The notes beneath the pieces are model-generated. The model did not search any database, was not told the origin of the DNA, and saw nothing but the letters and a program-made list of their open reading frames with translations. Positions 1 through 15,033 of a DNA stretch of 15,033 nt are shown here, in pieces. The stretch spans positions 1 to 15,033 of the forward strand of contig JAAZNO010000398.1 of assembly GCA_012798275.1 (NCBI GenBank), in the 5' to 3' direction. Both the position numbers and the translations under genes were made by a program. Origin of the DNA: Chloroflexota bacterium (GTDB lineage Bacteria; Chloroflexota; Anaerolineae; B4-G1; SLSP01). Within the stretch, counting starts at the first letter, position 1; each line of letters starts with the position of its first letter.

Positions 1-768
1 CGGCGCGGGAATCAGCGCCGGATTCGAGGACTGCGCGCTGACGCTCAGCGTCTGCACTTCGTTAGCAGCCCCGCTGCCGATGCCGCTCAGGGTCACCGTT
101 TGCTGCAGCGCATCCTCGTCCAACGTGCGGGCGGCGATGCTATCCAGCGTCGGCGCGTCGTTGACCGCATTGACGGTGACCAAGAAGGCGCGCGCCGTTG
201 TCGAAACGCCGTCGCTGACCGTGACGGTGATCGTGGCGCTGCCCCACTGATCGGCGAGCGGCGTGAAGCGCAGCGTGCTGCTCGTCTGCGGGCTGACGTA
301 AGTGACGGTCGGGGTCGGGATCAGCGTGACGTTCGACGAGCGCGCCGTGACCGTCAAGGTCTGCGTCTCATTGGCCGCCCCGCTGCCGATGCCGCTCAGG
401 GTCACCGTTTGCTGCCCCGCGTCCTCGTCCAACGTGCGGGCGGCGATGCTGTCCAGCGTCGGCGCGTCGTTCACCGCATTGACGGTGACCAGGAAGGCGC
501 GCGCCGTGGTCGCAACGCCGTCGCTCACCGTGACGGTGATCGTGGCGCTGCCCCACTGATCGGCGAGCGGTGTGAAACGCAGGACGCCGCCGGTCTGCGG
601 GCTGAGGTAAGTGACGGTCGGGGTGGGGATCAGCGTGACGTTCGACGAGCGCGCCATGACCGTCAAGGTCTGCGTCTCATTGGCGGCCCCGCTGCCGATG
701 CCGCTCAGGGTCACCGTCTGTTGCCCCGCGTCCTCGTTCACCATGCGGGCGGCGATGCTGTTCAGCGT
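1..768 (-). repeat. Tandem type C cadherin-like units with near-identical 309-bp DNA repeats
   Basis: Two full C units in tandem, 460-768 and 151-459, each exactly 309 bp, followed by a partial third (1-150) that runs off the window. By base-by-base comparison the two full units differ at about 23 positions (about 93% identical). The codon frame and domain boundaries (VNAVNDAP then TLxSIAAR) are the same in each. The third unit starts like the second (TLDSIAARTLDEDA) but then switches to the sequence of the C unit at 1321-1629 (LSVSAQSSxPALIPAP). The array continues beyond the window, so the true copy number is unknown and may be hard to assemble. Confidence 0.95.
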
Positions 769-3700
769 CGGCGCGTCGTTGACGGCGTTGACCGTCACCG
801 TCACTGTGGCCGTCACCTCCAAGACACCGTCGCTGATGGTGTAGGTGAAATGATCCGCGCCGTTGAGATTGAGCGTCGGCGTGTAGCGCAGGGTACTTCC
901 CGCGATCTCGATCTGCCCCAGGAGCGACGTTCCCACTGCCGTCAGGAAGGGGATTTGCCCATCAACGTCATAGTCATTGTCCAACACCGCGAGAGTGAGC
1001 GACGTATCCTCGTCTGTCGCGGCCACGTCATCCACCGCGGCCGGGGCATCGTTCACGCCGCCCACCTGCACCGTGATCCAGGCCGTCGCCTGCAAGCCGC
1101 CCGGATCACGCACGGTATAGGTGAAGACGTCATCGCCGACGAAGTTGAGCGTCGGGGTATAGACCATGGTCAGGCCGTGCGTGACCGCCGTTCCATTGGC
1201 CGGCGTCCCCAGGCTGCTCACAGTCAGCGCATCGCCATCCATGTCGCTCGCATAGGCCGGGAAGGGCGTGATCTCTGCCGGCACATCCTCGTCGGTCGCC
1301 ACGGAGATGTTCGCTGCCACAGGCGCATCGTTGATCGGATTGACCGTGACCAGGAACGCGCGCGCCGTCGTCAAAAGGCCGTCGCTGACGGTGACGGTGA
1401 TCGTCGCGCTGCCCCACTGATCGGCGAGCGGCGTGAAGTGCAGCGCGCCGCTGGTCTGCGGGCTGACGTAGGTGACGTCCGGCGCGGGAATCAGCGCCGG
1501 ACGCGACGATTGCGCGCTGACGCTCAGCGTCTGCGCCTCGTTCGCGGCCCCGCTGCCGATGCCGCTCAGGGTCACCGCCTGTTGCCCCGCGTCCTCGTTC
1601 ACCGTGCGAGCGGCGATGCCGTCCAGCGTCGGCGCGTCGTTGACCGGGGTCACCACGACTGTGACATCGGCCGTAGCAAACGCCACACCATCGCTGATCG
1701 TGCAGGTAAACGTATCCGTGCCGTGCAGGTTGAGCGTCGGCGTGTAGCGGAGGGTGCTGCCCGTGATCGTGACCTCGCCCAGGAGCGGGATGCCCACAGC
1801 ACTCAGGAAGGGAATTTGGCCGTCAGGGTCGCTATCGTTGCTCAACACCGTGAGGGTGAGCGGCGTGTCCTCGTCCGTGGTCGCCGTATCATCCACCGCG
1901 ACCGGCGGATCGTTGACGTTGTTCACCGTCACGTGGATCGAGGCGGTGGCTTCCAGGCCGCTGGGATCACGCACCGTGTAGGTAAAGGCATCAGCGCCGA
2001 AGAAGTTGAGTGTGGGCATGTAGGTGATCGTCACGCCGTCGGTCGTGGCGATGCCGTCGTAGGGCACGCCCAGGCGCACCACGGTCAGCGTATCGCCATC
2101 TATGTCGCTCGCATAGGCCGGGAAGGGCGTGATCTCGACTGGCGTTTCCTCAGCGGTGACAACCGGGATGTCGTCGGCGGCGGGCGCATCATTGATCGGC
2201 TGGATGGTGACAGTGACCCAGGCAGTGTCGAATAAGGCGCCGTCGCTGATCGTATAGGTGAACATGTCCATGCCGTAGAGGTTGGGCCAGGGCGTGTAGC
2301 GGAGGGTGCTGCCCGCCATCATGACCTCGCCCAGGAGGGGCGTCCCGACGGCGATCAGGAACAGGGTTTGCCCGTCAGGGTCACTGTCGTTGCTCAACGC
2401 CGCGAGGGTGAGCGGTGTGTCCTCGTTCGTGGTCGCCGTATCATCCACCGCGACCGGCGGATCGTTCACGCCGCCCACGGCCACGGTAATCCAGGCCGCG
2501 GCTTCCAGGCCGCTGGGATCACGCACCGTGTAGGTGAAAGGATCGGTGCCGACGAAGTCAAGCGTCGGTGTGTAGATGATGGTCATGCCGTCAGTGGTGG
2601 CCGCGCCATTGGCCGGACTCCCCACCCCGCTCACGGTCAGCGGGTCGTCATCCACGTCGGTCGCATAGACTGGGAAGGGGACAATCTCTACCGACGTATC
2701 CTCGTTCGTCGCTATCGAGATGTCGTTCGCGGCAGGCGCATCATTGACCGGATTGACCGCCATGGTGATGTAGGCGCTGGCCTGAAGGCCGCCGGGATCA
2801 CGCACGGTATAAGTGAAAGCATCAATTCCGACGAAGTTGAGCGTCGGGGTATAGATCGCGCTTGCGCCGTCCGTCGTAGCCAGGCCGTGCGCCGGCGCGC
2901 TTACGCTGGCGATGGTGAGCGGGTCGCCGTCCACGTCATAGACAAACTGGGGGAGCAAGGGAATCCACTTCGCTACCTCTTCATCAGTCACCTCATGGAG
3001 ACTGATTGCCGAGGGCACGTCGTTGACTGCCTGGATGGTGAGCGTGACCGTGGCGAGGTTCGAGCTCTCCAGCTCGCCCAAGAGGCGATAGGTGAAGCTG
3101 TCCTCGCCGTTGTAGTCCGTCGTCGGCGTATAGACAAAGGCGCCGTCGGGCTGCAACCTCACGTCGCCGTAATCCGGGGCGTACACGACCGTCGCCGTCA
3201 CGGACGTCCGCGTCCCCACCGTGTCGTTGCCCAACACGCCCGGCGCGACGACGTTCAGCGCTGTGTCTTCATCCGTCGCATAGCTGTCATCGGTCGCCCC
3301 AAAATCGAAGTAGTAGACGTAGGCGCGACCTGACGCCGCAACATCCGGCGCGCCGACGACAAGGGTGTCGCCATACAAGGCCAGCGCCGCGCCGAAGTGA
3401 TCGCCGGCGCTGCCGTCGGTGCGAGTGATTACCTCCGCCAGGCCCCAGTTGTCCGGCGCGGCGACGCCCGGAGTGTTCGAGTCATAATCGCGCAAGAAAA
3501 CGTAGACCGCGCCCTGTTCGGCGTGATCGCCGACCCCGGTGCGCGGCGCGCCGACGGCGATCCGGTCCCCCGCGATGGCAACCGCGACGCCGAACCCGTC
3601 AGTCAAGACGCTGGTGGATGTCAGGGTGGCAATCTGCCCCCAGGCGTTGTCGCCGCCTTCGTTCTGGAGGAAGACGTAGGCTGCTTCCGCGTCACTGCCG

Positions 3701-6700
3701 ATGACGATGGTGTCGCTGTCAATGTCCACGCTTCGGCCGAAGTGGCCCATTTCCACAAATGCTGGGCCGATCAGCATGACGGGCAGCGTCGTCCAGGTGT
3801 AGTAGGGCGGCGTCAGCGCATCGTAGGTGTACGTATAGACTTTGGCCGCGCCCGCCGCCAGGGCAGTTTCGCAGCTCCAATTCGGCGCCCCCACCACGAG
3901 CATATTGCCGCTGAGGGCCAGCGCCGCCCCAAAGCTGCCACTCACGGGGTCCGAGAGGTAAGTATCGCCCGCGCGAACGCCCCCGCCCCCAAACGCGGGG
4001 TTGCCCGGCACACCGACGATAAACGCATCCGGGCCGAGCTGCTCGACCGCGTAACCGGCATGATCCTGCATCGTCGAGCCCTGGACGGTCTGCGTGACGA
4101 CCCACTGCCCGTTGTCGGGATTCCATGGCTCAGCGGTGCGGAAACGGTAGGCCATCCCGCTGAGATCCGAAGACATCGTCTCGTCGGGGGCGCCGACCAG
4201 GATGTCGGGAACCGGGTTGCCCGACAGGTGACTGATAGCGACCGCCGAGCCAAAGTGCTCGCCGCCCATGTACCACCAACTGGCGCTCAGCGTGGTAGAC
4301 AAAGTCCATGCGCCAGACAAAGGCTGGTACCTCCACAGATACACGATGCCATTATCGCTGGCAACGCCATCTTCATACGGCGCGCCGGTAACGAGATAGT
4401 CGTTGTAGAGCGCGAGCGCCGCGCCGAACTTCTGGTCGGTCTGATCCGCTGTGGGCGAGAGGACGCCGCCCGGCTGCACGGTGAGGGAGACGGTCGTCGC
4501 TTCGGCCAGCGGACTGGGCTGCGCCGCATCCGGCAGCGCCACACTGGGGTGACCCGGGGACTGCGAGGCCGCGTTGCCGGCATAGAACGGGGAGACACGC
4601 AACAGCGCCGGCGCGGGCTGCGCTTTGACGCCAGCCGGCGACGCTGCCGGCGCCAGCGCAATCGCCGCCGCGTTACCCGGCGTGGTATAGGCACTCATGA
4701 GCTGCGGGCTGGTCGGGTCAGCAATGTTGATGACGCGCACACCGCCTGCGCCATCGGCCAGATAAGCGTAATTGCCCTGCACGATGACATCGGTAGCCGT
4801 GCCCGGCGTGTCCAGGCGGCCCGGTGTGGCAGACGGGTTCGACACGTCAATCACTGTCAATCCCAGGTTGCCGTCGGCGATGTAAGCCCGATTGCCAACC
4901 ACGACAACCCCACGCCCGTCGCCGGTTGCGTTGTAAGAGCTCAGAACGCCGGGTAGCGCCGGATTGGAGAGACTCACGCGCCACAGCGCGCCAGAAGGCA
5001 CATACGCCTGATTGTCCACGATGGCAAAATTGCTGGCGACCGAGCGAGCCGTCCAGGCTCCGACTTCGGACAGGCCATAGACGGTCGCCATCGTGCAGTC
5101 GGCGGTCAAACGATACACCTTGTTAGCCAGGCTCGACTGGCCCACCGTCGCCAGATACCACGGCGACTGGAAGTAGTCCGTCTTGTGCACCACGCCCGCG
5201 CCGCACGGCGAGGAAAAGCCATTTCGCCACAAGTTGAAGTCTTCGGCGACGGTCGTGTAGCGATACTTGCCGCCGCCGACCGTGAGGGTGAGGGCCACGC
5301 GCGGCGCCAGCGTGTCCAGATTGCCGCTCCACGTCTGGGCGGCCAGATCCGCCGCGCTCACGTGCCCGGCGGTATCGGCACCGCGCAAGTCAAGCGCGAA
5401 GGCTCCTTCCACCCCATCCGGCACCTCTGCGCTCCAGTTGGAGAACTTGACGCCGGCGCCGGATTGGGCCAGCGTGGCCACCTGCCAGCCGGCCTGGGCG
5501 AGCGCGGCCACTTCAAGCGGCGACAGCGCGCGGGCGTAAACGCGAACATCGTCCACGCCGCCGCGCCAATAGCGCATACTGGCAGGCTGCGCCGCCAGCG
5601 TCCACGCCAGGTCCGCCATGTAGGAATAGGTAGGATGGGAAAGCCGCTGGCTGCCTGCTCCCGGCTGCGGATTGAGGGTCACACTCCGCTGCCAATTTGT
5701 AGCGGGCATAGGTCCCTGGTACGAGACTTGCAACGTGATCTGCGAGCAGAAAGAGTTGAGAACGCTGAGCTTGATGGGAACATACGGCGTGGCCTGGCTG
5801 GTTCCATGATAAAGAGACTGGCCCTCCAGCGTCACGTCATAATATCCCATACTCAGTGGGGTGAGGGTGAGATTCGCAAAGGTGACGCAGCCAGCCACGG
5901 CTTCGCCGCGTCCAATGTCGAAGCGTGAGGGGCTCGTCGGATGCTGGCCCGCGAACGCCGTAGTGCTCGCGCGCTGCTCCCCGTTCACGTACAGGCTGTA
6001 GGTCACGCCGTCGAACGTGGCCGCCACGTGGTTCCAGGCATTCTCCGTCAGTGCGGCAGTCGTGTAGGTGACGAGCGGTTGCGTCCCGTTGCCAAAGCCG
6101 CCGACCAGGACATTCCGGTTGATCACTTGAAGGGCGGGATAGGTGTAGCGCGTGTCCGTGTAGGCGTCGCTGCCCAAGATGGGATAGGAGCTCACATCCT
6201 CCGGGGAGGGATAGACCCAGGCAGCCACACTGAAGCGCGAGCCGGGAAGCAGGCCGGCTTGCGGTCCGACGGCGACGTAATCATCCACGCCGTCGAGGTA
6301 GAGGCTGGAGTCGCCTACCGCGCCGGCGGTGGCTTTGTTCATGTCGTCCGCCCCGGTATACAGCACACCGTCGTGCTCCCAACCGGAGGCATCGGCCAGG
6401 GTCACGCCGTCTGCGGCCCACGCCTCGTCCAGTGTGAGCCGGAGCACCGGTTCGGCGCCGAGGTACAACCGCTCGCGGAGCGTGTCGGCGGACAAGGCGC
6501 GGTCGAACATCCGCACGTCGTCAATGATGCCGGGGAAGCGATGGTTCACGCCGTCCGAGCGGCTGCCCACTGCCGAGGCGCCGCTGCATTGCGCCATGCT
6601 GCCCGCTACTGCTGTGCTGGCGACCAGTCGCCCGTCGCGGTAGAGGCGAAGCGTCGCGCCGTCATACGTGGCAGCCAGGTGAACCCAGGTGTTGAGCGGG

Positions 6701-9700
6701 ACGGTCACGGCTTGTTCGGCATACTTCCAACTGCCGCCCACTTTGACCCAGATGCGCGGGTAGTGACCAGTCTTGTTCTCGTTGAGGGAGAGGGTAAGGC
6801 CACAGCCGGCCGCCTCTTTGTAGGACACGATAGTTTCGCGCGCGCCGGTCCCGCCCGTGCGCTTGACCCAGGCGGAGACCGTAACGTTCGTAAACGTACC
6901 CCAATTGGGCAATGCGACGGTGGTTTGTTTGCCGTCGAAAGCCGCCGCGCTGCCGGAATGTCCTATCACGCCATAACCGGGGCAACCCGCGCCCGTGCAT
7001 GTGCCGTGATGCGCCTGGCCGGAAATATCCTGCCAGGTGAGGCTGCCATTTTGGTCAGACATGTCGTCAAGCGCCAGATGGAGCGTCTCGCCGGCCAAAG
7101 GCGTTTCGTTATAAAGTGCGGAACCGGGCAGCGTGGGCCGCCAGGCCACTTGCGCGCTGCTCAGCCCGGCGACTTTGGGCTGCGCCAGAGCGCGCACTTC
7201 TTCGGGCAACAGCGCCCGCTCGACGATCACCAGCTCGTCGAGGTAGCCCATGTACGGCTCGGCGAGCGCTGTGCTGCCGGTGTTGGTCCCCGCGCCAATC
7301 AGCAGGAGGTCATCCAGGTCGGGTTGCAGGGTCGTGGTCGCGGTGAAGACGGCTTGCAATGCGCCGTTCTGGTACAGGGCAACGGTGTTGTCGTCCCCGA
7401 TCACTGCCGCTACGTGCACCCATTGGTTACTTTGGAGCACACCGGCGACATAGGGACGCGGGCTGCTCCCCAAAGCGGTAAACAGTAGTTGGTTATTCTG
7501 CAACCCGAAGCCAAAGCCGTTGGGGCTGTGGGTCTGGGCTGTTGCCACAAGGCGCTGGACGCCGGATAGCGCTTCAGGCTTGATCCAGGCCGCCACAGAC
7601 AGGCCGGCCGTGCGCTCATTGATCGGGCTATGTGCCACCTGGAGCGCTTGCGCGCCCCTGAAGCGCACCGCATTGCCGTAGACCCCGATCGCGCCGGCTT
7701 CAGGACAGGCGTCCAGGCATGTGGCATGGAGCAACGCGCCGCCGTTATCGTAGAAGAGAGTGGCCCCCGCGCTTTCTTCGAGGTGCAACAGAAGCGCCGT
7801 ATCGCGTGGGGCCGGCGCCTCGCTCACAGTGCCTTGCGCCGTTTGCGTGGACGTGATCGCCGTCGTCGGCAGGTGAGCGTCCCCGCCGGGCGCGGCGGCG
7901 TCCACCAGGATTGTACCAAGCGCCAGGCGCGCCTGATTGCCCATGCGATCGGCGGCCTCCAGGCGGACGGTGTAACGGCCCGTCGGGTACGCCTCCGCGA
8001 TGGTGTAGGTGACCGACCAGGCATTCCCGGCCAGGGCGACGGGCTGCGCCTCCCCCCCGACTACCGCGCCGTTCGCATCCAGCAACGCCACCCGGACGCT
8101 GTCCAGTTGGAGTCCGCTGCCGGGTATAGACGGACCGGCGATGTTGGGATCAGAGACACTGCCGCTCAAGTCAACCGACCAGACGTTGGAAAGCGTGGGG
8201 TGCAGTCGCGCAGAGAGCAGGGAATCGGAAGGGAGACCCAGGTTTGCCACAGGCGGCGTCGCGTCCACGTACAAGGCGGTGTTGGCCGAGGTCGCCTGGT
8301 TGCCGGCCCAATCCGTGGCGCGGGTGGCCAGGACATACTGGCCCTCGCCACTCGGCTTGAAGAACGGGCACCAGGCTGTGTCCCCCAGCGAATCCGTACA
8401 CGCCGGCGCCGCCACGGTCGTCGGGCTTCCGCCGGCTTTGGTGACCAGCAGTTCCACCTGACTCACCCCGGCGTAGCCATCCTGCGCCGCAACATACATC
8501 AACACGCCCTGGTTCGCCAGGTAAGGCAGATCCGGGTTGTAGGAACGCAGGGCTGAGGTAGGCGCAGTCGCGTCTACCAACAACGCGTCGCTGCGGCGTT
8601 CGTGGATCAGCTTGCCCTGGTAGCGATAAATGTCCCGCACCGTGTAGGCGTTGAGCGCGTGATCGTACAGCGTCACCTCGTCGAGCCGGCCATAGAAGGG
8701 AGAGCCCGCGGCAGATCCGCCCATCGAGACGGCCTCCGTACTGGCGCACGCCGCGCCGCTCAGGGCGACGCTGCCCTGTTCGTACCCGTTCACGTAGATG
8801 CGGGCCGTGCTGCCGTCGTAAGTGCCCATCACGTAGTTCCACTGGTCAGGCAACAGTTGCGTCAGGCTGGCGACCGAAATCCCTGCGCCGCAAGCACCGC
8901 TTGACACAGGCGCGAGGGTCAACGTGGCCGTGAGGCCGCCGGCCGGGATGGAGAGCTGATAGTTGTTGCCCTTGCTCACCAACACCTGCTCGCCGTTCTT
9001 GATCGCCGCAGGCTGCACCCAGGCGCCCACGCTGAAATGCGGCAAATCGAGGCTCGCGTTGGCCGCAATCGTAATCCGGTCCGTCGTGTGGCCGGGCGCC
9101 ATGTTGAACTCAGCCGCCTGGCCGGCTTGCCCGGCGGCGCCGGCCGTCGGGCAAGCCGTGCACGTGCCGGGGAGTGCCCCCGTGATGTTGGCAAACTGCG
9201 TCGCACCCAACAGCTCGTCCAGGTGCAGATGAACGACGGGCGCTTCCTGGTAGATGGCTTGCAGGCCGGATGCAGACGGCGGGAGCGTAAAGACGCGCAC
9301 GTCGTCAATGTCGCCGGCCCAGTACGAACCGCCGGCAGGATGCCGGCCCACGGCCAGGTGCTGAGCGGTCAACGAGCTGGTTGTTGTGGTCGTGATCAAC
9401 TGGCCGTTCAAGTAGAACTTGACCTGCCCCTGCTCCAGGGTCGTGGCGACGTGCTGCCACTCATTGGGCGTGACCGCTGCGCCGGTATCGAACAGGGCGG
9501 CACCGTTTAGCACCTTCCAGCGCAGGCCCTCACGCACAATGGCCCAGTTGCCTGTACTGAGCACGACCCGAGTGGTATTGTCTGACGCGGCGGGCTGCAC
9601 CCAGGCCATCAGTGCGCCGCCCTGCGACGTATCGAGCGTCAACGTCGTACTCAGCCAGTCGCTCGAGCCATCGAACAGCGCGGCCTGGTTGATGCGCCCG

Positions 9701-12700
9701 GCCACGCCCGTCGTGGGGCAGGCACCGCCCGCGCTGGCGCAGAAGGCGTTGCTTTGCTGGCTCAAATCCACCGAGTTTTCAAAGGTGGACACCCCCGGCG
9801 CCTCGTCCAACTTGAGGTGCAACGCCAGGCCGGCAGCCCGGTACAGCTCATCAATCTCTTCGGTCGAGAGCGGTCGCCGGTAGATGGCGACATCGTCCAA
9901 CACCCCGCGGAAGGGCATCGCGTTGTTGTAGAAGGCCCAATGGGTGTCGTCGCCCAGATACAGGCCAGCGTAGCGATCCTTATCGTTCAAGGCCATGAAG
10001 CGCAGGCCGGGGGCGTTGGTGTCGAAGTCGTAGGTGCTGTCACACGTCTCCGCGCCATCCGTGCTTTTCAGGCAGAGGTTGTGGTCCGTCGAAAGATAGC
10101 GGTGCACGACCCCCAGCGTGCTGGCGCCATCCATGCTCTTCAAGAGGTCTACATCCACAGTGTCGCCATCACCAAGGCTGTCCCACGAGCACCCGCTACA
10201 TACGCTGCCGTTCCACTTGATCTTGAAGTCAGCCTTCAAAATATCGCCGCTGGTGCCGGGCCGCGCGTTATAGACATGCAATTGGTCAATCCAGACGTTA
10301 CCTCGCTGGCCTGAGGAACCCACGCGCAGAGCCGTGGCATTGGTCGGCCTGGCGCCATCCAGGTTCCAGCTGGCGACACGCGCGTTGTTGACGTAGAGGA
10401 CCAACTCGCTGGCGTTGTAGGTGGCGACGAGGTGATTCCAGGCGGCGGCGGTCAATACCGTGTCAGTGGTCGTGCGCGAGACCCACGTGGAGCCCGTGCC
10501 AAAACCCACCCGGACGTGACGGCCTACCATCTGCAACGTGGGATAAGCGTTCTTTGAGCCGCTCTGCTCGCCCAGGATGCCCTGCGCATAGGGCGGGCTG
10601 AAAGTGAACTGGACCCGAGTGCCGTAAACCGAATCAACGTTAACTTTGATATTGTGGACGCCCGCGCCGAGATGGTAGTGAAGGTTGGTCGCTGTGCGAT
10701 CCCAATACTCCACATAAGAAGCGCTGTCCTCCCATGGATCTGCGGAGGCAATTTGGACGCCGTCTACATAGAGTCTCGCCTTGCCCTGGAGGTCGGTTCG
10801 CAGTGCAAAGTCATAGTAACCCGCCGGGAAGTTGAAGTCCCCTGAGTAGTAGCGGGTATATCCGCCAGCGGGGGTCGTGAGATCCAACATCAGGCCGCTG
10901 GCGGGATCCATCCAGCCATCCCAGCCCGCGCAGCCAGTTTTTACCGGCGTCGAGGCGAGGTAATAGCCGGCCGTGAAAGGACATGCCGGATCCACCGGTT
11001 CCGGTTGCGGATTGGGCTTGACCCAGGCGGAGAGCGTGAACTGGCCGTCGCTCAGGTCCAGGCTGGGGCGGCGGGAGACGTTGAGATAGTCGTTGCCATC
11101 AAACTTCCCGCCCCACAGGCTGGTCACGCCAGGGACGCGGGCGGGGCAGGCGCTCCCGGTGCACGAGCCGCCATTGCTCAAGCCGGAGTCATCGGCAAAG
11201 ACCGTCTGTGACGGCGTCGGGTTAGTGACTTGCTCAAACTGCAGGTGCAAGACCGGGCGCTCATACAACTCGCGGATTTCGCTCACCGTGAGGGGACGGT
11301 TGTAGGTGCGCACATCGTCCAGCCAACCCTTCCACGCGCTGGCCAGGGTCACGGCGCCGGTACCGTTGAAAGCCGCGATGCCGGTGCGGCTGACAACCCG
11401 CTCGGTGTTGACGTAAATGGCCTGTTCCGCGGCTTCCTTGTCGTAGCGGAAGACCAAATGATACCAGCGATTCGCCGCCAACCGGGTAGGGCTGGAGAGG
11501 ACATTGCCGCCGAAATCCAGCGCCGGTTTGCCGTCACGCAACATCAATTGCAATCGAGGCGTGCCCTCCGTGCTCAGAATGTTCCGGTCGCCGGTCAGGT
11601 CGGTGGTGTTGACCCAAACGGAGACGGCAAAACTGGAATCGGTGAGACCCAGTCGGTCCGCAGCGGGGAGGGTGACGGATTGGCCGCCGTCAAACTTGAG
11701 CGCGTAATCGAAGTAACCCGGCTCCGCGCGGGTAGGACATGTCGCCTCGCTGCACGCGCCATTGGCTGCCGGCAGGGTGCCGGAATGATCCAGGAACACG
11801 GTTTGGGTGGCGTCTTCGTCCAGCGGCAGCCAGAGTTGGGCGTAGTTGGATTCCTCACGCCAATCGGTGATCAGCGCCTCGGCGGTCTGGGTGATGCTGA
11901 TCGGTCGGGTGCTCTGGGAGGCAACGGCGAGATTGCCGGCCACACGGGTCTCCGCGAGCGGCTGAAGCACAAAGGTCTGTGGGGCCGGTGTTCTCACGGC
12001 CAGCGCGGGCGCACTGTCGAATGATAGAAGCCCCTGCGCGTAACGGCCCAGCAATTTGTTAGACAGGGTAGCCGTATAGGCCAATGTCTGCCCGGGCAGC
12101 ACGACCCTATCGTTGAGATTGAAGCGGCCTTGCATCACATCCCGAACCTCACCCGCGTTGAACGCGCGGTCGAAGACGGTCACGTCATTGAGTAGACCGG
12201 TGAAGCTATCGGCGGCAGACGTGGCACCGATCACTAACGCATCCCCGGTATCGGGCCGGGCCGGCCTGGAGTATGAGACCTTTTGCTTGAAGACCCCATT
12301 CACGTAGAAGGATACGGCATTCGCGCTATCCATCACGGCTGCCACATGGGTCCACTGGTTCGCTTGCAGTCCGACGGAAGCATAGTAAGTGGTCTCACCA
12401 TAAGTTCTGAGAGATAAGCCAGCGTTCGACAGGCCAAACGCAAAGCCATCGGCAGCGCTATTTATCTGGGCCGTGGCCAGGATGTTCTGAGCGCCGGAGA
12501 CCCTGGTCGGACGCACCCAGGCCGCCACGGTGAAGTTGTGACTCAGACGGTTCACCGGGCCGTTAGGCAGGCTCAGGGAATCGCCGCCGCCAAACTGGGC
12601 CGCGTAAGCATAACGTCCGTCCTTCCCGGCGTCGGGACAGGCGCCCGGCGCGCATACGGCGGCGTCGGTCAAGTTGGCCTCATTGCGGAAGGTCTGCGCG

Positions 12701-15033
12701 CCGGCGGCTTCATCCAGGCGCAACAGCAGGAGGGGCGCACTCGTTTCCTGCACGCCTGCCGCCATGTTGAGGACGCTCGGGTCGGAGGGCACATAGGGAT
12801 TGTAGCCGAAGGTCCTCTCCTTGAAATCGTTCAGGCCGTCGTAATCCGCATCAGGCTGTAACGGGTCAGACGTGACCCAGGTGTAGCGCTGGCTTCCGCT
12901 CGCGTCAATGGCATAGACTATTTCCCAACCGGTCAGCTCTTCCTTGTCCGTCAGGCCGTCGCCGTCGCTGTCCTGGCGCATAGGATCGGTGTGCCGCGCC
13001 CCCTCTTCGGCGTCCGTCAGCCCGTCATCGTCGCTGTCCTGGCGCATAGGATCGCTGCCGTGCGATAGCTCCCAATCATCCGCCAGCCCATCGCCGTCGG
13101 TGTCCCAGCGGCTATCATCAGGGTCGGCGCCGCCATCCGCGCGTCCGAGCAAGCTGTCGCCGTCAAAGTCCGCTTGCCGTTGGAACGTGAGGGTGTTCCC
13201 CTGCCCCCACGCCAGGCTGTAGCCGCCGTCGCGCTCCACCGCCGCGTAGAATTCATCCAGCGTGAACGGCAAGACGTCGAGCACAAAGCGTCCGCCCAGG
13301 TCAATGTGGGTCGAATTGTCACTGCCGCGAATGGCGCAGACGGGAATCAAACAGACATAAGGGATGGCGCACACTCCCATCCACACCGTGAGCGGATTGG
13401 GGACGGTCCAACATTCCTGCGTCGCCACATCCGCCCCCTCGGTCAAGGTCGCCTGGATGGGTTGGTTGATGCCGGCCGTGTCCAGGGGAATCGCCTCGCT
13501 CGCCGGCGTGGGATTGGCATAGAATGTATGCGCCGCGCCGGCCGGCTGCCACTCGTCCTTCATCTGATCCAGGTCAACGCCTTCGAGATCGGCTTCCTGG
13601 TTTTGGATTTCGTACTTGAACGTCGAGCGTCTCACATTGCTATCGGAGAACTGCCACCAGTACGAGAGGGACTTCCAGTCCACCGGGATCAGATTCGTGC
13701 CGCTTTTCCAGTTTTCGATCATTTCGTCGGTGGGCGGGATGACGGGTACCAGCTTGATGGTGCTGGTGAGATCGAGGGTGAGGTAGAGATTGTTGCCCAC
13801 CGCCAGGCCCTCATCGGGTTCTTCCAGATCATAGCCGAAACGGCCAAATTGGAGCCGCTCCGGGTCTTGCAGGTCGGTCAGCGCGCGGGCGCTAAAGATG
13901 AACCACTTGATCGCCTCAGCCGCCCAGCCTGTGAGGCCCTTGCACAGCCACTGGCCGACATACGTTTTCCGCACGTCTGTGCCCACAATGACGGAGGTGA
14001 GACTGCAGATCGCCAGGACCAGCGCGTCAAAGGCGCCAATGATGGCGGCGATGATCTGCCCCACGACCGGGATTAGGGAGATGGCCAGGATGAGGGTCGC
14101 GACGATGGCGTAAGCAATGAAATCGGCAATCGCGGCGTGAGCGGCGATGCTGCTCAGCTCGAGGTGCCCCGCGACAATCGTGACAATTGCGCCCGCAAAG
14201 GCCACCGCCACCCCAATGATAAATCCAATGATGGTGCATACCACGACGGCCCGGCTGAGCTCCGCCAGGGTCTTGGTCGCCGCCTCATAGATGGTCTTGA
14301 TGGCCAGGACCACTTGCACTGTGGCCAGGGTGACCGACACCACCAGGCTGAGCATCAGCTCGACTTTGGCAAAGGCAAAGCCCACGACAATCGAAATGAT
14401 CAGCAGCGAGGCGCCGGCAATGGAGAGCGCGACCGCCGTGCCGAACTTTTTGCCGCTGTTCAATGTGTCGGCGAGAGTATCGAAGAGGCTGTTCAGCTTC
14501 TCAGTCGCCGTGTTCTTGATGCCGCTGCCAATCAGCCAGAACACGTCCCTCGGCCCTGTGATGCCGGCCTTGGAAAATCTGCCTCCCAGGCCCACATAAT
14601 TCATCTCGATCTTGTAAGCGCGATAGGCGGCGTCCACGATCATTTCAGTGACGGTCGCGATGCCCGACATTCCGCCCGTCATCCCGCCATAGACAGAATG
14701 GGTCGCCATGTACGATAGGGTCATCGTCAGCGAGCCATCGCCCTGGAGCGGGTTGTACGGATAGAGGGGGGTATTTCCCACCGCCACCAGACTCGTCCGC
14801 CCCTGATTGAGCGCCAGGTAATACGAGCGGGCGACGGCAATCATCCCGTCGCGAATTTCTTCGACAGTCTCGGAAGGAGCATCCGTCGCCAACGGCAGGC
14901 CGGCCTTCAGGCGCACCCCTAACAGGTCCCAATATTCAGCCATCGGGAAAGAGTCCCACGCGCCGTCGCGATAGCGGTACGGCGCCCAGTTGATCGCGGC
15001 AATCGTGTTAAGCGGCTGACCGGTCAGGTTAAA
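1..15033 (-). CDS. Giant multidomain LamG / FG-GAP / cadherin-like surface protein, internal fragment open at both ends
   Basis: One reading frame on the complement is open through all 5,011 codons, with no in-frame stop on any line, and recognisable domains follow one another in this frame from end to end. That makes it one gene and not several. Order: unrecognised N-side region, about five hydrophobic helices, Ca-binding TSP3-like repeats, eight LamG domains (one with a nested PA14-like domain) with stalk and Ig-like spacers, LVIVD repeats, seven FG-GAP repeats, and at least twelve cadherin-like domains. Such modules are typical of exported adhesins and glycan-binding proteins, so a cell-surface or secreted role in attachment is inferred; no enzyme active site was seen. 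Start, signal peptide, stop and any C-terminal anchor lie outside the window. Codon use looks uniform: only about 25 TTA/CTA/TCA codons by my count. No frameshift or internal stop is seen. No specific gene name is recognised. Confidence 0.97.
769..3012 (-). repeat. Alternating cadherin-like units A-A-B-A-B-C-A-B of fixed lengths
   Basis: Eight units, each ending V/I-NDxP. Type A is 279 bp (93 residues), at 2734-3012, 2455-2733, 1903-2181 and 1042-1320; hallmarks are FPxYxxDxDGDxLTV, YTPTLNFVGxDxFTYTVRDP and GGLQA or SGLEA. Type B is 273 bp (91 residues), at 2182-2454, 1630-1902 and 769-1041; hallmarks are VAVDDTATTxEDTPLTL, NDSDPDGQ, LLGEV and STLRYTP. Type C is 309 bp (103 residues), at 1321-1629; hallmarks are SIAARTVNEDAGQQ, LSGIGSGAANE and FTPLADQWGSATITVTVSDG. 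A and B keep DxDGD or DxDPDG acidic loops that fit Ca2+ binding between domains; C lacks them. Lengths within each type are identical, so the units expanded by duplication and not by drift. The domains probably form an extended stalk. Confidence 0.95.
3013..3300 (-). repeat. Cadherin-like / VCBS-type domain, founder unit (D0)
   Basis: 96 residues, starting GATDDSYATDEDTALNVVA, with NGEDSFTYRL in the middle and ending LTIQAVNDVP. This is the classical 'DDxYxTxEDTxL...VLxND' form of the Cadherin_5/Big_9-type domain. It is longer than and distinct from all later units, and is probably the N-terminal cap of the stalk. The Asp residues at its start could take part in Ca2+ binding. Confidence 0.9.
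3307..4440 (-). other. Seven FG-GAP repeats: integrin-alpha-like beta-propeller
   Basis: Seven successive units with an FG...GAP-type core: KFGAALALYNDYLVTGAP; HFGSAVAISH with ILVGAP; HAGYAVEQLG with FIVGVP; SFGAALALSGNMLVVGAP; HFGRSVDIDSDTIVIGSD; GFGVAVAIAGDRIAVGAP; HFGAALALYGDTLVVGAP. Each is followed by a strand like AYVFL or VYVFLR. Seven is the blade number of the integrin alpha-chain propeller, so this should form a closed propeller of about 378 residues. Units 3 and 5 deviate in the FG or GAP positions. It joins the cadherin-like array through FDFGATDDSYATDEDT without a linker. It is probably a protein- or glycan-binding head at the base or middle of the stalk. Confidence 0.95.
4441..4680 (-). 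other. Pro/Ala-rich linker between LVIVD and FG-GAP segments
   Basis: About 80 residues rich in Ala, Pro and Ser (AAIALAPAASPAGVKAQPAP, then NAASQSPGHPSVALPDAAQP). It has no domain hallmarks and probably serves as a flexible spacer between the two propeller-type segments. Confidence 0.7.
4681..5040 (-). other. LVIVD-type repeats (short beta-propeller segment)
   Basis: Three successive units of roughly 40 residues: a degenerate one (NFAIVDNQAYVPSGALWRV, then SLSNPALPG), a good one (GVVVVGNRAYIADGNLGL, then TVIDVSNPSAT) and a second good one (VIVQGNYAYLADGAGGVR, then VINIADPTSPQ). The pattern 'v-x-v-x-g-n-x-A-Y-x-A-D-G-x-x-G-L-x-V-I-D-v-s-n-P' is that of the LVIVD family, which forms beta-propeller blades in extracellular proteins. 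Three blades are too few for a full propeller, so they may complete one with the unclassified stretch before them. Function is unknown; binding or structural roles are both possible. Confidence 0.85.
5041..5484 (-). other. Ig-like segment and unclassified linker after LamG 8
   Basis: About 148 residues. The first half looks like an Ig-type unit (EGAFALDLRGADTAGHVS, then NLDTLAPRVALTLTVGGG), with the same 'D-T-x-A-P' opening used by the Ig-like pair. The second half (YRYTTVAEDFNLWRNGF, a Cys at SPCGAG, then NKVYRLTADCTMATVYG) is not recognised and may be the first, divergent part of the propeller-like segment that follows. Confidence 0.5.
5485..6453 (-). other. LamG / concanavalin-A-like domain 8, with an insertion before its last strand
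   Basis: About 323 residues: opening PVLRLTLDEAWAADG, LYLDGVDDYVAVG, core FSVAAWVYPS, YPILGSDAY, YPALQVINRNVLVGGFGNG, AWNHVAATFDG, SLYVNGEQRAST, and closing GGVDDVRVYARALSPLEVAALA. Between RFDIGRG and the closing strand there is an extra beta-rich segment of about 107 residues (5575-5895) with two Cys (GCVTF, SFCSQ) and strands such as MGYYDVTLEGQSLYHG. It lacks the C-x(n)-CP pair found early in the other seven LamG domains. The ILG...YPxLQ...R part marks it as the same subtype as LamG 3, but without the PA14 insertion. Confidence 0.9.
6463..7086 (-). other. LamG / concanavalin-A-like domain 7
   Basis: About 208 residues: opening TLHLALDDMSDQ, LTWQDISGQAHHGT, Cys pair CTGAGCPG, AFDGKQTTVALP, core VTVSAWVKRT, TWVHLAATYDG, LRLYRDGRLVAS, and closing PGIIDDVRMFDRALSADTLRERLY. 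A short linker (about 30 residues, QPKVAGLSSAQVAW) joins it to LamG 6. Like LamG 5 it has extra Cys residues (AAGCGL, AQCSGA). Confidence 0.93.
7183..7800 (-). other. LamG / concanavalin-A-like domain 6
   Basis: About 206 residues: opening ALLLHLEESAG, Cys pair CLDACPEA, RFRGAQALQVA, core LSVAAWIKPE, QWVHVAAVIG, ALYQNGALQAV, and closing GYLDELVIVERALLPEEVRALA. It resembles LamG 1 most closely in its middle (SGVQRLVATAQTHSPNGFGFGL here, against SGAQNILATAQINSAADGF in LamG 1), so these two look like recent paralogues within the protein. Confidence 0.92.
7903..8580 (-). other. Two tandem bacterial Ig-like domains
   Basis: Two beta-sandwich spacer units, each opened by a VDATxPx-type motif. Unit 1 (about 8269-8580) starts VDATAPTSALRSY and ends QYVLATRATDWAGNQATS. 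Unit 2 (about 7903-8268) starts VDATPPVANLGLP and ends RYTVRLEAADRMGNQARL, then ILVDAAAPGG. The 'Y-x-v-x-a-x-D-x-x-G-N-x-a' closing strand is typical of the Big_3/Big_7-like units of exported bacterial proteins. They probably act as a rod separating LamG 5 from LamG 6. Unit 1 has two Cys (PACTDS, AWCPFF) that could form a disulphide. Confidence 0.82.
8623..9246 (-). other. LamG / concanavalin-A-like domain 5
   Basis: About 208 residues: opening VVHLHLDELLG, tight Cys pair CTACPT, AEFNMAPG, core FSVGAWVQPA, QWNYVMGTYD, ARIYVNGYEQG, and closing YGRLDEVTLYDHALNAYTVRDIYR. Extra Cys residues occur in the body (SSGACGAG, SGAACAST). The Tyr and Met in WNYVMGTYD replace the commoner HVAATYD without disturbing the strand pattern. 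Confidence 0.93.
9247..9837 (-). other. LamG / concanavalin-A-like domain 4
   Basis: About 197 residues: opening LALHLKLDEAPG, widened Cys pair CASAGGACPT, LFDGSSDWLST, core GALMAWVQPA, EWQHVATTLE, KFYLNGQLITTT, and closing GDIDDVRVFTLPPSASGLQAIYQ. The closing helix lacks the usual R-A-L-S motif (it reads TLPPSAS). It is directly continuous with LamG 3 and LamG 5, so domains 2 to 5 form an uninterrupted string. Confidence 0.93.
9841..11256 (-). other. LamG / concanavalin-A-like domain 3, enlarged by two insertions
   Basis: About 472 residues instead of the usual 200. Opening VLHLQFEQ, Cys pair CTGSACPA, KFDGNDYLNVS and core FTLSAWVKPN are normal. A PA14-like domain then interrupts it (10600-10980). 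The LamG resumes with YAQGILGEQSG, YPTLQMVGRHVRVGFGTG, AWNHLVATYN and LVLYVNNARV. A strand that looks like a closing one (NVWIDQLHVYNARP) is followed by about 130 further residues with several Cys (CSGCSW, NLCLKS, AETCDS) before a second, canonical closing strand (FRGVLDDVAIYRRPLSTEEIDELYR). Either the domain carries an insertion before its last strand or its last strand was duplicated. It shares the ILG...YPxLQ...RxVxVGFGxG stretch with LamG 8, so the two are one subtype. Confidence 0.88.
10600..10980 (-). other. PA14-like domain nested inside LamG 3
   Basis: About 127 residues inserted after the AWVKPN core strand of LamG 3 and before its next strand. Motifs that fit PA14: a start like FTAGYYLAS, YYSGDFNFPAGYYDFALRTD, ARLYVDGVQIASADPW, then HYHLGAGVHNIKVNVDS and a last strand RVQFTF. 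PA14 is a beta-barrel, named for anthrax protective antigen, found in glycosidases, yeast flocculins and adhesins, where it often binds sugars. The VDG turn and the AGxHxIxV strand are the strongest hallmarks. A Cys pair lies in its first part (ACPFTA and KTGCAGW). Family assignment is by eye. Confidence 0.8.
11260..11847 (-). other. LamG / concanavalin-A-like domain 2
   Basis: About 196 residues: opening LWLPLDEDATQTVFLD, Cys pair CSEATCPT, KFDGGQSVTLP, core FAVSVWVNTT, RWYHLVFRYD, AIYVNTERVV, and closing GWLDDVRTYNRPLTVSEIRELYE. It has the same layout as LamG 1. In place of the usual NG turn after the YV strand it has NTE, a small deviation that is unlikely to affect the fold. It ends directly against LamG 3. 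Confidence 0.93.
11848..12126 (-). other. Beta-rich spacer domain between LamG 1 and 2
   Basis: About 93 residues, beginning NLNDRVVLPGQTLAYTATL and continuing SNKLLGRYAQGLLSFD, then LRP-like polar strands and a TQTAEALI stretch. The 'xxPGqxlxYtxtlxN' pattern is like spacer domains of the DUF11/CARDB Ig-like kind found in exported bacterial giants. I call it a stalk or spacer. It has no Cys and no acidic Ca loop. Confidence 0.55.
12127..12738 (-). other. LamG / concanavalin-A-like domain 1
   Basis: About 204 residues with the standard order of LamG_3 motifs: opening strand LLLLRLDEAAG, Cys pair CAPGACP, FGGGDSLSLP, core strand FTVAAWVRPT, QWTHVAAVMD, SFYVNGVFKQ, and closing strand LLNDVTVFDRAFNAGEVRD. 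This fold is a jelly-roll that in many exported proteins binds carbohydrate or protein, often with Ca2+. It follows the TSP3-like repeats with almost no linker. The ligand cannot be told from sequence. Confidence 0.93.
12775..13173 (-). other. Thrombospondin type 3-like calcium-binding repeats
   Basis: Residues 621-753 hold a series of acidic loops: DFDGDSLLG, DPDDSRWDTDGDGLADDWE, DPMRQDSDDDGLTDAEE, DPMRQDSDGDGLTDKEE and, after about 24 residues, DPLQPDADYDGLNDFKE. The DxDxDG spacing followed by a Leu-x-Asp and an acidic pair is the bacterial TSP3 pattern, in which each loop binds Ca2+. Two of the repeats share the same DPMRQDSD start, which points to local duplication. The insertion between the fourth and fifth loop (GWEIVYAIDASGSQRYTWV) resembles the layout of the Ca-binding region of anthrax protective antigen-type proteins. 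The role is probably a Ca-dependent rigid hinge between the membrane-associated N-side and the LamG run. Confidence 0.92.
13174..13980 (-). other. Unrecognised region between hydrophobic block and Ca-binding repeats, with hydrophobic Cys cluster
   Basis: Residues 352-620. It begins with a likely amphipathic helix (GWAAEAIKWFIFSARAL, about 13880-13930). Mixed sequence follows, with beta-like stretches (NNLYLTLDLTSTIKLVPVI) and several Trp residues (KSLSYWWQFSD). Near 13336-13413 there are four Cys residues in a hydrophobic run, three of them spaced C-x5-C-x4-C (GVCAIPYVCLIPVCAI). The end (GGRFVLDVLPFTLDEFYAAVERDGG) flows into the acidic repeats. No family is recognised. It may be an extracytoplasmic domain held by disulphides. 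Confidence 0.45.
13981..14439 (-). other. Block of about five hydrophobic helices (putative membrane-associated segment)
   Basis: Residues 199-351 are strikingly hydrophobic and rich in Ala, Ile, Val and Gly. By eye they divide into helix 1 at 14368-14439 (with SLLIISIVVGFAFA), helix 2 at 14299-14364 (with LMLSLVVSVTLATVQVVLAI), helix 3 at 14167-14250 (with CTIIGFIIGVAVAFAGAIV), helix 4 at 14059-14121 (with ATLILAISLIPVVG) and helix 5 at 13981-14058 (with IIAAIIGAFDALVLAIC). The loops carry some charge (KTIYEAATKTLAELSR). This is not a signal peptide, because it sits inside the protein with about 200 residues before it in the window. It could anchor the protein in a membrane, or be a membrane-inserting segment as in some large exported toxins. 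That role is inference; only the hydrophobicity is seen. Confidence 0.75.
14440..15033 (-). other. Unrecognised region on the N-side of the hydrophobic block
   Basis: Residues 1-198 of the visible protein. I do not recognise a family. It is mixed polar sequence with aromatic clusters near its start (WAPYRYRDGAW, then AEYWDLLG), followed by a predicted helix (EEIRDGMIAVARSYYLAL) and a Gly/Met-rich stretch (YGGMTGGMSG, about 14659-14688). It leads directly into the first hydrophobic helix after the basic motif SGKKFG. There is no repeat similarity to the LamG or cadherin-like parts. It may be the end of a domain that starts outside the window. Confidence 0.5.

Follow-up and report, generated by a model that had tools for sequence, protein, structure and literature searches.

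We analyzed a 15,033-bp stretch of DNA (hereafter 'the window') from a Chloroflexota bacterium, contig JAAZNO010000398.1 of assembly GCA_012798275.1. As judged from its reading frame and its relatives, the window covers the middle part of a single genuine gene coding for a giant protein, and profile searches place this protein in a family of giant modular surface proteins found widely in Chloroflexota. The protein is probably a giant adhesin, or a protein that builds filaments or aggregates, held in the membrane by its N-terminal part.

The window makes up the whole of contig G000:C525 in its own draft genome (G000; 724 contigs, 3.06 Mb); the frame is therefore open at both ends. A direct frame scan reproduced the starting observation of the original prediction: minus-strand frame 1, which starts at the last base, has no stop over 5,011 codons (1..15033), while stops in the remaining five frames number 25, 183, 236, 169 and 127. 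Chance origin of the open frame was rejected, since the longest open run seen in any frame of 100 mononucleotide shuffles was 460 codons. The G+C content at the three codon positions of the frame is 0.62/0.51/0.80, and the plus-strand frame with only 25 stops sits opposite this gene rich in third-position G+C. The predicted antisense shadow of up to 711 codons is present; on the frame and stop counts and the codon-position G+C, antisense open frames were rejected as genes. An annotation pipeline was predicted to be liable to miss such a gene; common gene callers accept genes running off contig ends. The features of the window are as follows (residues are numbered along the window's frame):

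1..15033, minus strand: middle 5,011 codons of a giant surface-protein gene, with both gene ends on other contigs
14893..15033, minus strand: 141 bp identical to the end of contig C146, on which gene start and signal peptide lie
13174..15033, minus strand: window part of the N-terminal membrane module, residues 1-620, without a Pfam family
13969..14448, minus strand: hydrophobic helix bundle, residues 196-355, about 5-6 membrane-spanning segments (hydropathy, AlphaFold2 helices)
12904..13104, minus strand: TSP3 calcium-type repeats, about residues 644-710 (Pfam PF18884, E 2e-14; motif positions)
5509..12585, minus strand: 11 LamG (concanavalin-A-like lectin) matches together with Ig-like domains, residues 817-3175 (PF13385, E 8e-89 and 8e-97)
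4681..4923, minus strand: two LVIVD repeats, residues 3371-3451
3310..4464, minus strand: four FG-GAP repeats, residues 3524-3908 (Pfam PF14312, E 3e-35)
1..3297, minus strand: tandem-95 domains of cadherin-like kind, about eleven in number, from residue 3913 to the end of the contig (NF012211, E 1e-159; Pfam)
68..799: 309-bp tandem repeat, 2.4 copies with 92% match, lying within the tandem-95 domains where the contig ends
100..2235, plus strand: antisense open frame of 711 codons with a TTG start, a shadow of the gene rather than a gene

That a single gene exceeds the window was borne out by the location of start and end pieces in the same draft genome. The last 141 bp of contig C146 (4,545 bp) are identical to the gene-start end of the window, and on C146 an ATG at position 1153 is followed by 1,131 codons. 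The N-terminus of this frame, MKRWHESLSRVLIVVGMLLTVMAGGLSAVRA..., resembles the signal peptide that was expected upstream: positively charged residues followed by a hydrophobic stretch make up an export signal at residues 6-32, as judged from hydropathy and by eye. The junction of C146 with the window is present in three assemblies. Contig G020:C80 spans it, its DNA being 99.8% identical to one piece and 99.4% to the other; for contig G001:C99, from the same genus, the values are 95.8% and 94.1%. The G020 assembly may come from closely related or shared material, and G001 is independent. As two other assemblies cross the junction, misassembly on the N-terminal side is unlikely. A side observation concerns locus L088, that is G020:C80 itself: with coverage 2.0, it was binned in another genus yet is 99.4-99.8% identical to the start and N-terminal part of the gene, against 94-96% for the same-genus G001; misbinning or a shared population is probable.

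At the other end of the window we looked for an exact overlap with another contig and found none; the 309-bp tandem repeat probably caused the contig break. The end of the gene was placed on contig C162 of the same genome, which has an open 5′ end and 1,582 codons that start in tandem-95-like repeats and finish with a stop. This placement follows from colinearity with the C-terminal regions of the relatives in G008, G022 and G036 (43-47% identity) and from the match to G001:C217 (95% identity); the latter contig extends ∼780 bp further upstream, and repeats there share 82-84% identity with the ones close to the window end. The predicted size above 5,000 residues is reached in the window alone, and the three contigs together give at least 7,677 residues (1,084 from C146, 5,011 from the window and 1,582 from C162, with the gap excluded). 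The full protein is thus probably longer than 7,600 residues; complete relatives in G022 and G036 have 7,193 and 7,375.

A C-terminal anchor or sorting signal of a known kind, also predicted, was not seen on C162; membrane segments are located near the N-terminus instead. Sortase-anchored proteins carry a C-terminal LPXTG motif, a hydrophobic helix and a charged tail. C162 ends in YMPLVTRDYAPGD and its tail is not hydrophobic, with no hydrophobic segment by hydropathy beyond residue 292 of 1,582; a sortase-type anchor was rejected because the hydrophobic C-terminal helix is missing. Other known C-terminal anchor families were rejected on hydropathy and on Pfam and NCBIfam scans of the end piece, and no RTX family was among its Pfam and NCBIfam matches at E ≤ 0.1.

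The protein chain begins with the signal peptide, a domain of ∼240 residues, a hydrophobic hairpin (two hydrophobic segments flanking an RRRSR turn, C146 residues 291-344), TSP3-type repeats, a second soluble domain that starts on C146 and runs into the window, and the helix bundle; the conserved stretch after the bundle reaches about residue 620. Then come the tandem domains of adhesion type (TSP3, LamG, with two of the 11 matches being short pieces, FG-GAP and Big_9/cadherin), with the window's LVIVD repeats between LamG and FG-GAP. C162 carries, after its tandem-95-like repeats, further LVIVD repeats, domains of Ig-like type and a proprotein-convertase P domain. Within the family a C-terminal part of ∼1,350 residues is conserved and the middle is variable. 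The frame had been described as bearing domains throughout; this holds only in part, the first 600 window residues having no Pfam or NCBIfam match at E ≤ 0.01.

The N-terminal membrane module, with no convincing Pfam match, appears less ordinary than either the size class or the repeats. Its first soluble domain has a predicted LprG/LolA-like fold. The 10 Pfam families listed for this domain in 24 members include neither LprG/LppX nor LolA; the best of them is an LmeA-like phospholipid-binding family (E 0.0056, in one member), and the Chloroflexus aurantiacus member has a weak match to the NCBIfam SCO4651-lipoprotein family (17.7 bits, the cut-off being 65). When C146 and two further queries, A4 and A5, were compared with the sequences of solved structures, nothing relevant came up. 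A fold search with the model of the second domain and bundle had no match either, and the predicted template modelling score of this model (0.46) permits no inference on fold novelty. In the bundle five hydropathy peaks are conserved, near window residues 211, 236, 275, 311 and 335.

A profile of the bundle region matched the window and all 29 loci found in a scan of GTDB contigs, several of them truncated or split; these loci had, however, been found through part of that very profile (∼900 residues). The profile of the N-terminal domain matched 25 of the 29; the four that it missed are open at the 5′ end. Twenty-six loci are labelled Chloroflexi, Chloroflexota or their subgroups, two only 'bacterium' and one Candidatus Zipacnadia. 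With a profile of a conserved stretch (A3, E ≤ 1e-10) we detected the family in 48 of 298 genomes of the class and in 16 of 301 genomes of the phylum, own genome being counted in both samples. Members are present in two closed genomes, G429:C1 (3,847 residues, at 4,687,537-4,699,080) and G422:C1 (4,370 residues, at 2,737,182-2,750,294), taken as C. aurantiacus J-10-fl and Herpetosiphon aurantiacus; G534, with two members (4,022 and 3,854 residues), is less certainly Chloroflexus aggregans. The members in these three genomes all have the N-terminal hydrophobic segment, the N-terminal domain and the membrane module. Complete relatives that we examined range from 3,847 to 9,244 residues, the largest being in G231:C204 (L131, L132). 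The member in the genome labelled Candidatus Zipacnadia (L102, JALGTR010000341.1) may reflect misbinning or transfer. Internal stops were seen in G269:C55 and G076:C1, and split frames at L105, L111 and L113; the broken frames of these relatives are probably due to decay or sequencing error.

Could the long frame be an artefact, made by chimeric joining or frame shifts in the assembly, or belong to a gene in decay? The draft is in 724 contigs and the contig ends in a tandem repeat. Still, the frame is intact and colinear over 13.3 kb in G001 and over 3.1 kb in G020, and similar genes occur in closed chromosomes; misassembly was rejected on these grounds, and closed genomes carrying members make misassembly unlikely for the family as well. 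The ratio of non-synonymous to synonymous substitution rates (dN/dS; Nei-Gojobori, one genome pair) against G001 was 0.128 in the start piece; it came to 0.196 over window codons 1-4,448 (the last 563, in repeats, were left out) and to 0.208 in C162, and it did not exceed 0.44 in any of the 12 blocks of the 4,448 codons. Decay was rejected at such values (0.13-0.21); the substitution pattern indicates that the gene is functional, and we give an artefact of any of these kinds hardly any credence.

The adhesin or filament-building protein that we favor would work as follows. The chain would be exported by the Sec route, with hairpin and bundle as its anchor in the cytoplasmic membrane; a long, calcium-stiffened stalk pointing outwards would be formed by the calcium-type and cadherin-like repeats; LamG domains and the conserved C-terminal part, the latter at the tip, would bind glycans or partner surfaces outside, and the protein would act in sticking to surfaces or to other cells. 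The giant secreted surface role that had been proposed is upheld by signal peptide and adhesion-type domains; a C-terminal wall anchor of known type finds no support. One could also suppose that the membrane module serves for export only, the repeats then being cleaved and released or built into a filament sheath or matrix. The repeat-rich composition would suit such a protein, as would the members in the filamentous C. aurantiacus and H. aurantiacus, and the hydrophobic segments may be lost from the mature protein. Against this, the ∼900-residue module, matched at 29 of 29 loci, is more conserved than a disposable leader would seem to need, and we regard release or sheath building as unlikely.

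Less likely by far is a contact-dependent weapon or predation protein, in which the bundle would insert into a target membrane while the repeats bind the target cell. A hydrophobic bundle within an exported protein could be read this way, and one member belongs to the predatory H. aurantiacus; moreover, weak matches to receptor-binding jelly-roll families (PF07953) fall over the LamG region, below cut-off in the window and above it in H. aurantiacus. The fold behind the PF07953 matches, however, is lectin-like, and they overlap the LamG domains or lie beside them. Scans of the start, window and end pieces gave no domain of a catalytic toxin, nuclease or protease at a curated cut-off, and the bundle is located near the N-terminus after signal peptide and hairpin, as an anchor would be. 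A phototroph also carries a member, and the pore proteins in the structure listing for the bundle model, none with an E value better than 0.19, do not amount to a match.

Several points weigh against the membrane-anchored adhesin. C162 was placed by homology across an unclosed repeat gap, without sequence overlap. The number of membrane segments is uncertain, with five hydrophobic peaks and possibly a sixth, amphipathic helix; were the number odd, the repeats would come to lie on the wrong side of the membrane. The model of the second domain and bundle is of low score, as given above, and nothing among solved structures fits it better than E 0.19. Topology, anchoring and adhesion are all deduced from sequence features.

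Cohesion and surface attachment of filamentous Chloroflexota in mats, sludge and hot springs are, to our knowledge, poorly known; the family offers a conserved adhesion candidate, with members in the closed genomes of C. aurantiacus and H. aurantiacus. Bacterial huge proteins and giant genes were reportedly studied by Reva and Tummler in 2008. The huge proteins described in passages of PMC11573180 are similar in having >5,000 residues, many repeats and a surface type; the protein studied here differs in a conserved N-terminal membrane module of its own. Neither Chloroflexi nor Chloroflexota is named in the main text of that paper. Its survey counts >41,000 proteins above 5,000 residues across life, mostly eukaryotic, so the claim that proteins of this size are rare in bacteria is weakened. 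Giant1-5 of Apilactobacillus kunkeei, with 3,000-8,000 residues, share extracellular location, signal peptide, long repeats and purifying selection according to passages of PMC12863079; they carry an N-terminal beta-solenoid, and those passages mention neither an LprG-like domain nor a helix bundle. In PMC9793634 the passage on a 'giant protein' deals with Gracilibacteria, not the Chloroflexota family.

Cadherin- and Ig-like tandem domains are shared with adhesins of the BapA/LapF type (NF045619), to which the match is 59 bits, below the cut-off of 180; the match to tandem-95 proteins (NF012211) is 519 bits, above the cut-off of 90. Adhesins of the BapA/RTX type I class have no Sec signal peptide and carry a C-terminal secretion signal with RTX repeats. 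The present protein, in contrast to the BapA type, has a signal peptide and an N-terminal membrane module, and lacks a type I secretion C-terminus; a type I secreted RTX/BapA adhesin was rejected, a Sec-type signal being present and RTX families not matched by the C-terminal piece at E ≤ 0.1. LprG/LprF/LppX and LolA/LolB/RseB have a fold similar to that predicted for the first domain; a sequence relationship was not found, and here the fold is one domain of a giant protein.

In the open-licence literature that we searched, neither the giant family nor its C-terminal motif was recognized; the size class and repeat domains are of an established kind, while the N-terminal module and the motif are undescribed as far as that search goes. 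The motif, short and of the [YFH]LP[LV]V type, occurs as h-[YFHW]-[LMIFV]-P-x-x with x mostly hydrophobic within the last 20 residues of 14 of 20 C-termini (counting both G000 and G001 and leaving aside split L111 and contig-cut frames), by a wide pattern broadened after some of these C-termini had been seen; a narrower pattern gave 12 of 20. It is located 189-307 residues before the end in G022, G036 and G008 and 52 before it in G231; among the 20, G054 and L113 lack it. Of 274 open frames from the loci collected, 16 carry the narrower pattern in their final 20 residues (9 giant-family members and 7 other frames), while nine other 20-residue bins contain none or one each; the motif thus ends proteins outside the giant family as well. 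When own genome was scanned at DNA level for Y[LF]P[LV][IMV], 11 sites turned up versus 2 for the control, and seven of the 11 sit 8-10 residues before a stop. A strict 24-nt pattern in G429, G534 and G422 gave 5 matches versus 5 for the control, no excess, although with its single spacing this is a weak test. We also saw the motif 8-16 residues before the stop at the C162 end (L048:4700-4749) and in other frames of own genome, at L117, L118, L119, L121, L122, L124 and L126.

The motif is possibly a C-terminal tag of these bacteria, and as such a separate lead on protein sorting in Chloroflexota; 'YLPLV' together with Chloroflexi and C-terminal was not found in the open-licence literature that we searched. 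One could speculate, with considerable reserve, that the N-terminal module is an undescribed display platform of Chloroflexota from which giant adhesins are displayed by their N-terminus, maybe sensing or gripping lipids of the envelope, and that the motif, which other exported-looking proteins of these bacteria share, is a new tag for sorting or assembly.

Upstream of the gene start, the divergently oriented neighbour (L025:1-714, minus strand) codes for a BTAD-type transcriptional activator, in synteny with G001. No BTAD-type regulator was among the upstream frames scanned in G022 (one frame, without a Pfam match) and G036 (two frames, a DUF11/Ig-type protein and an AAA/DUF4143 protein). It is possible that the BTAD-type neighbour regulates the giant gene.
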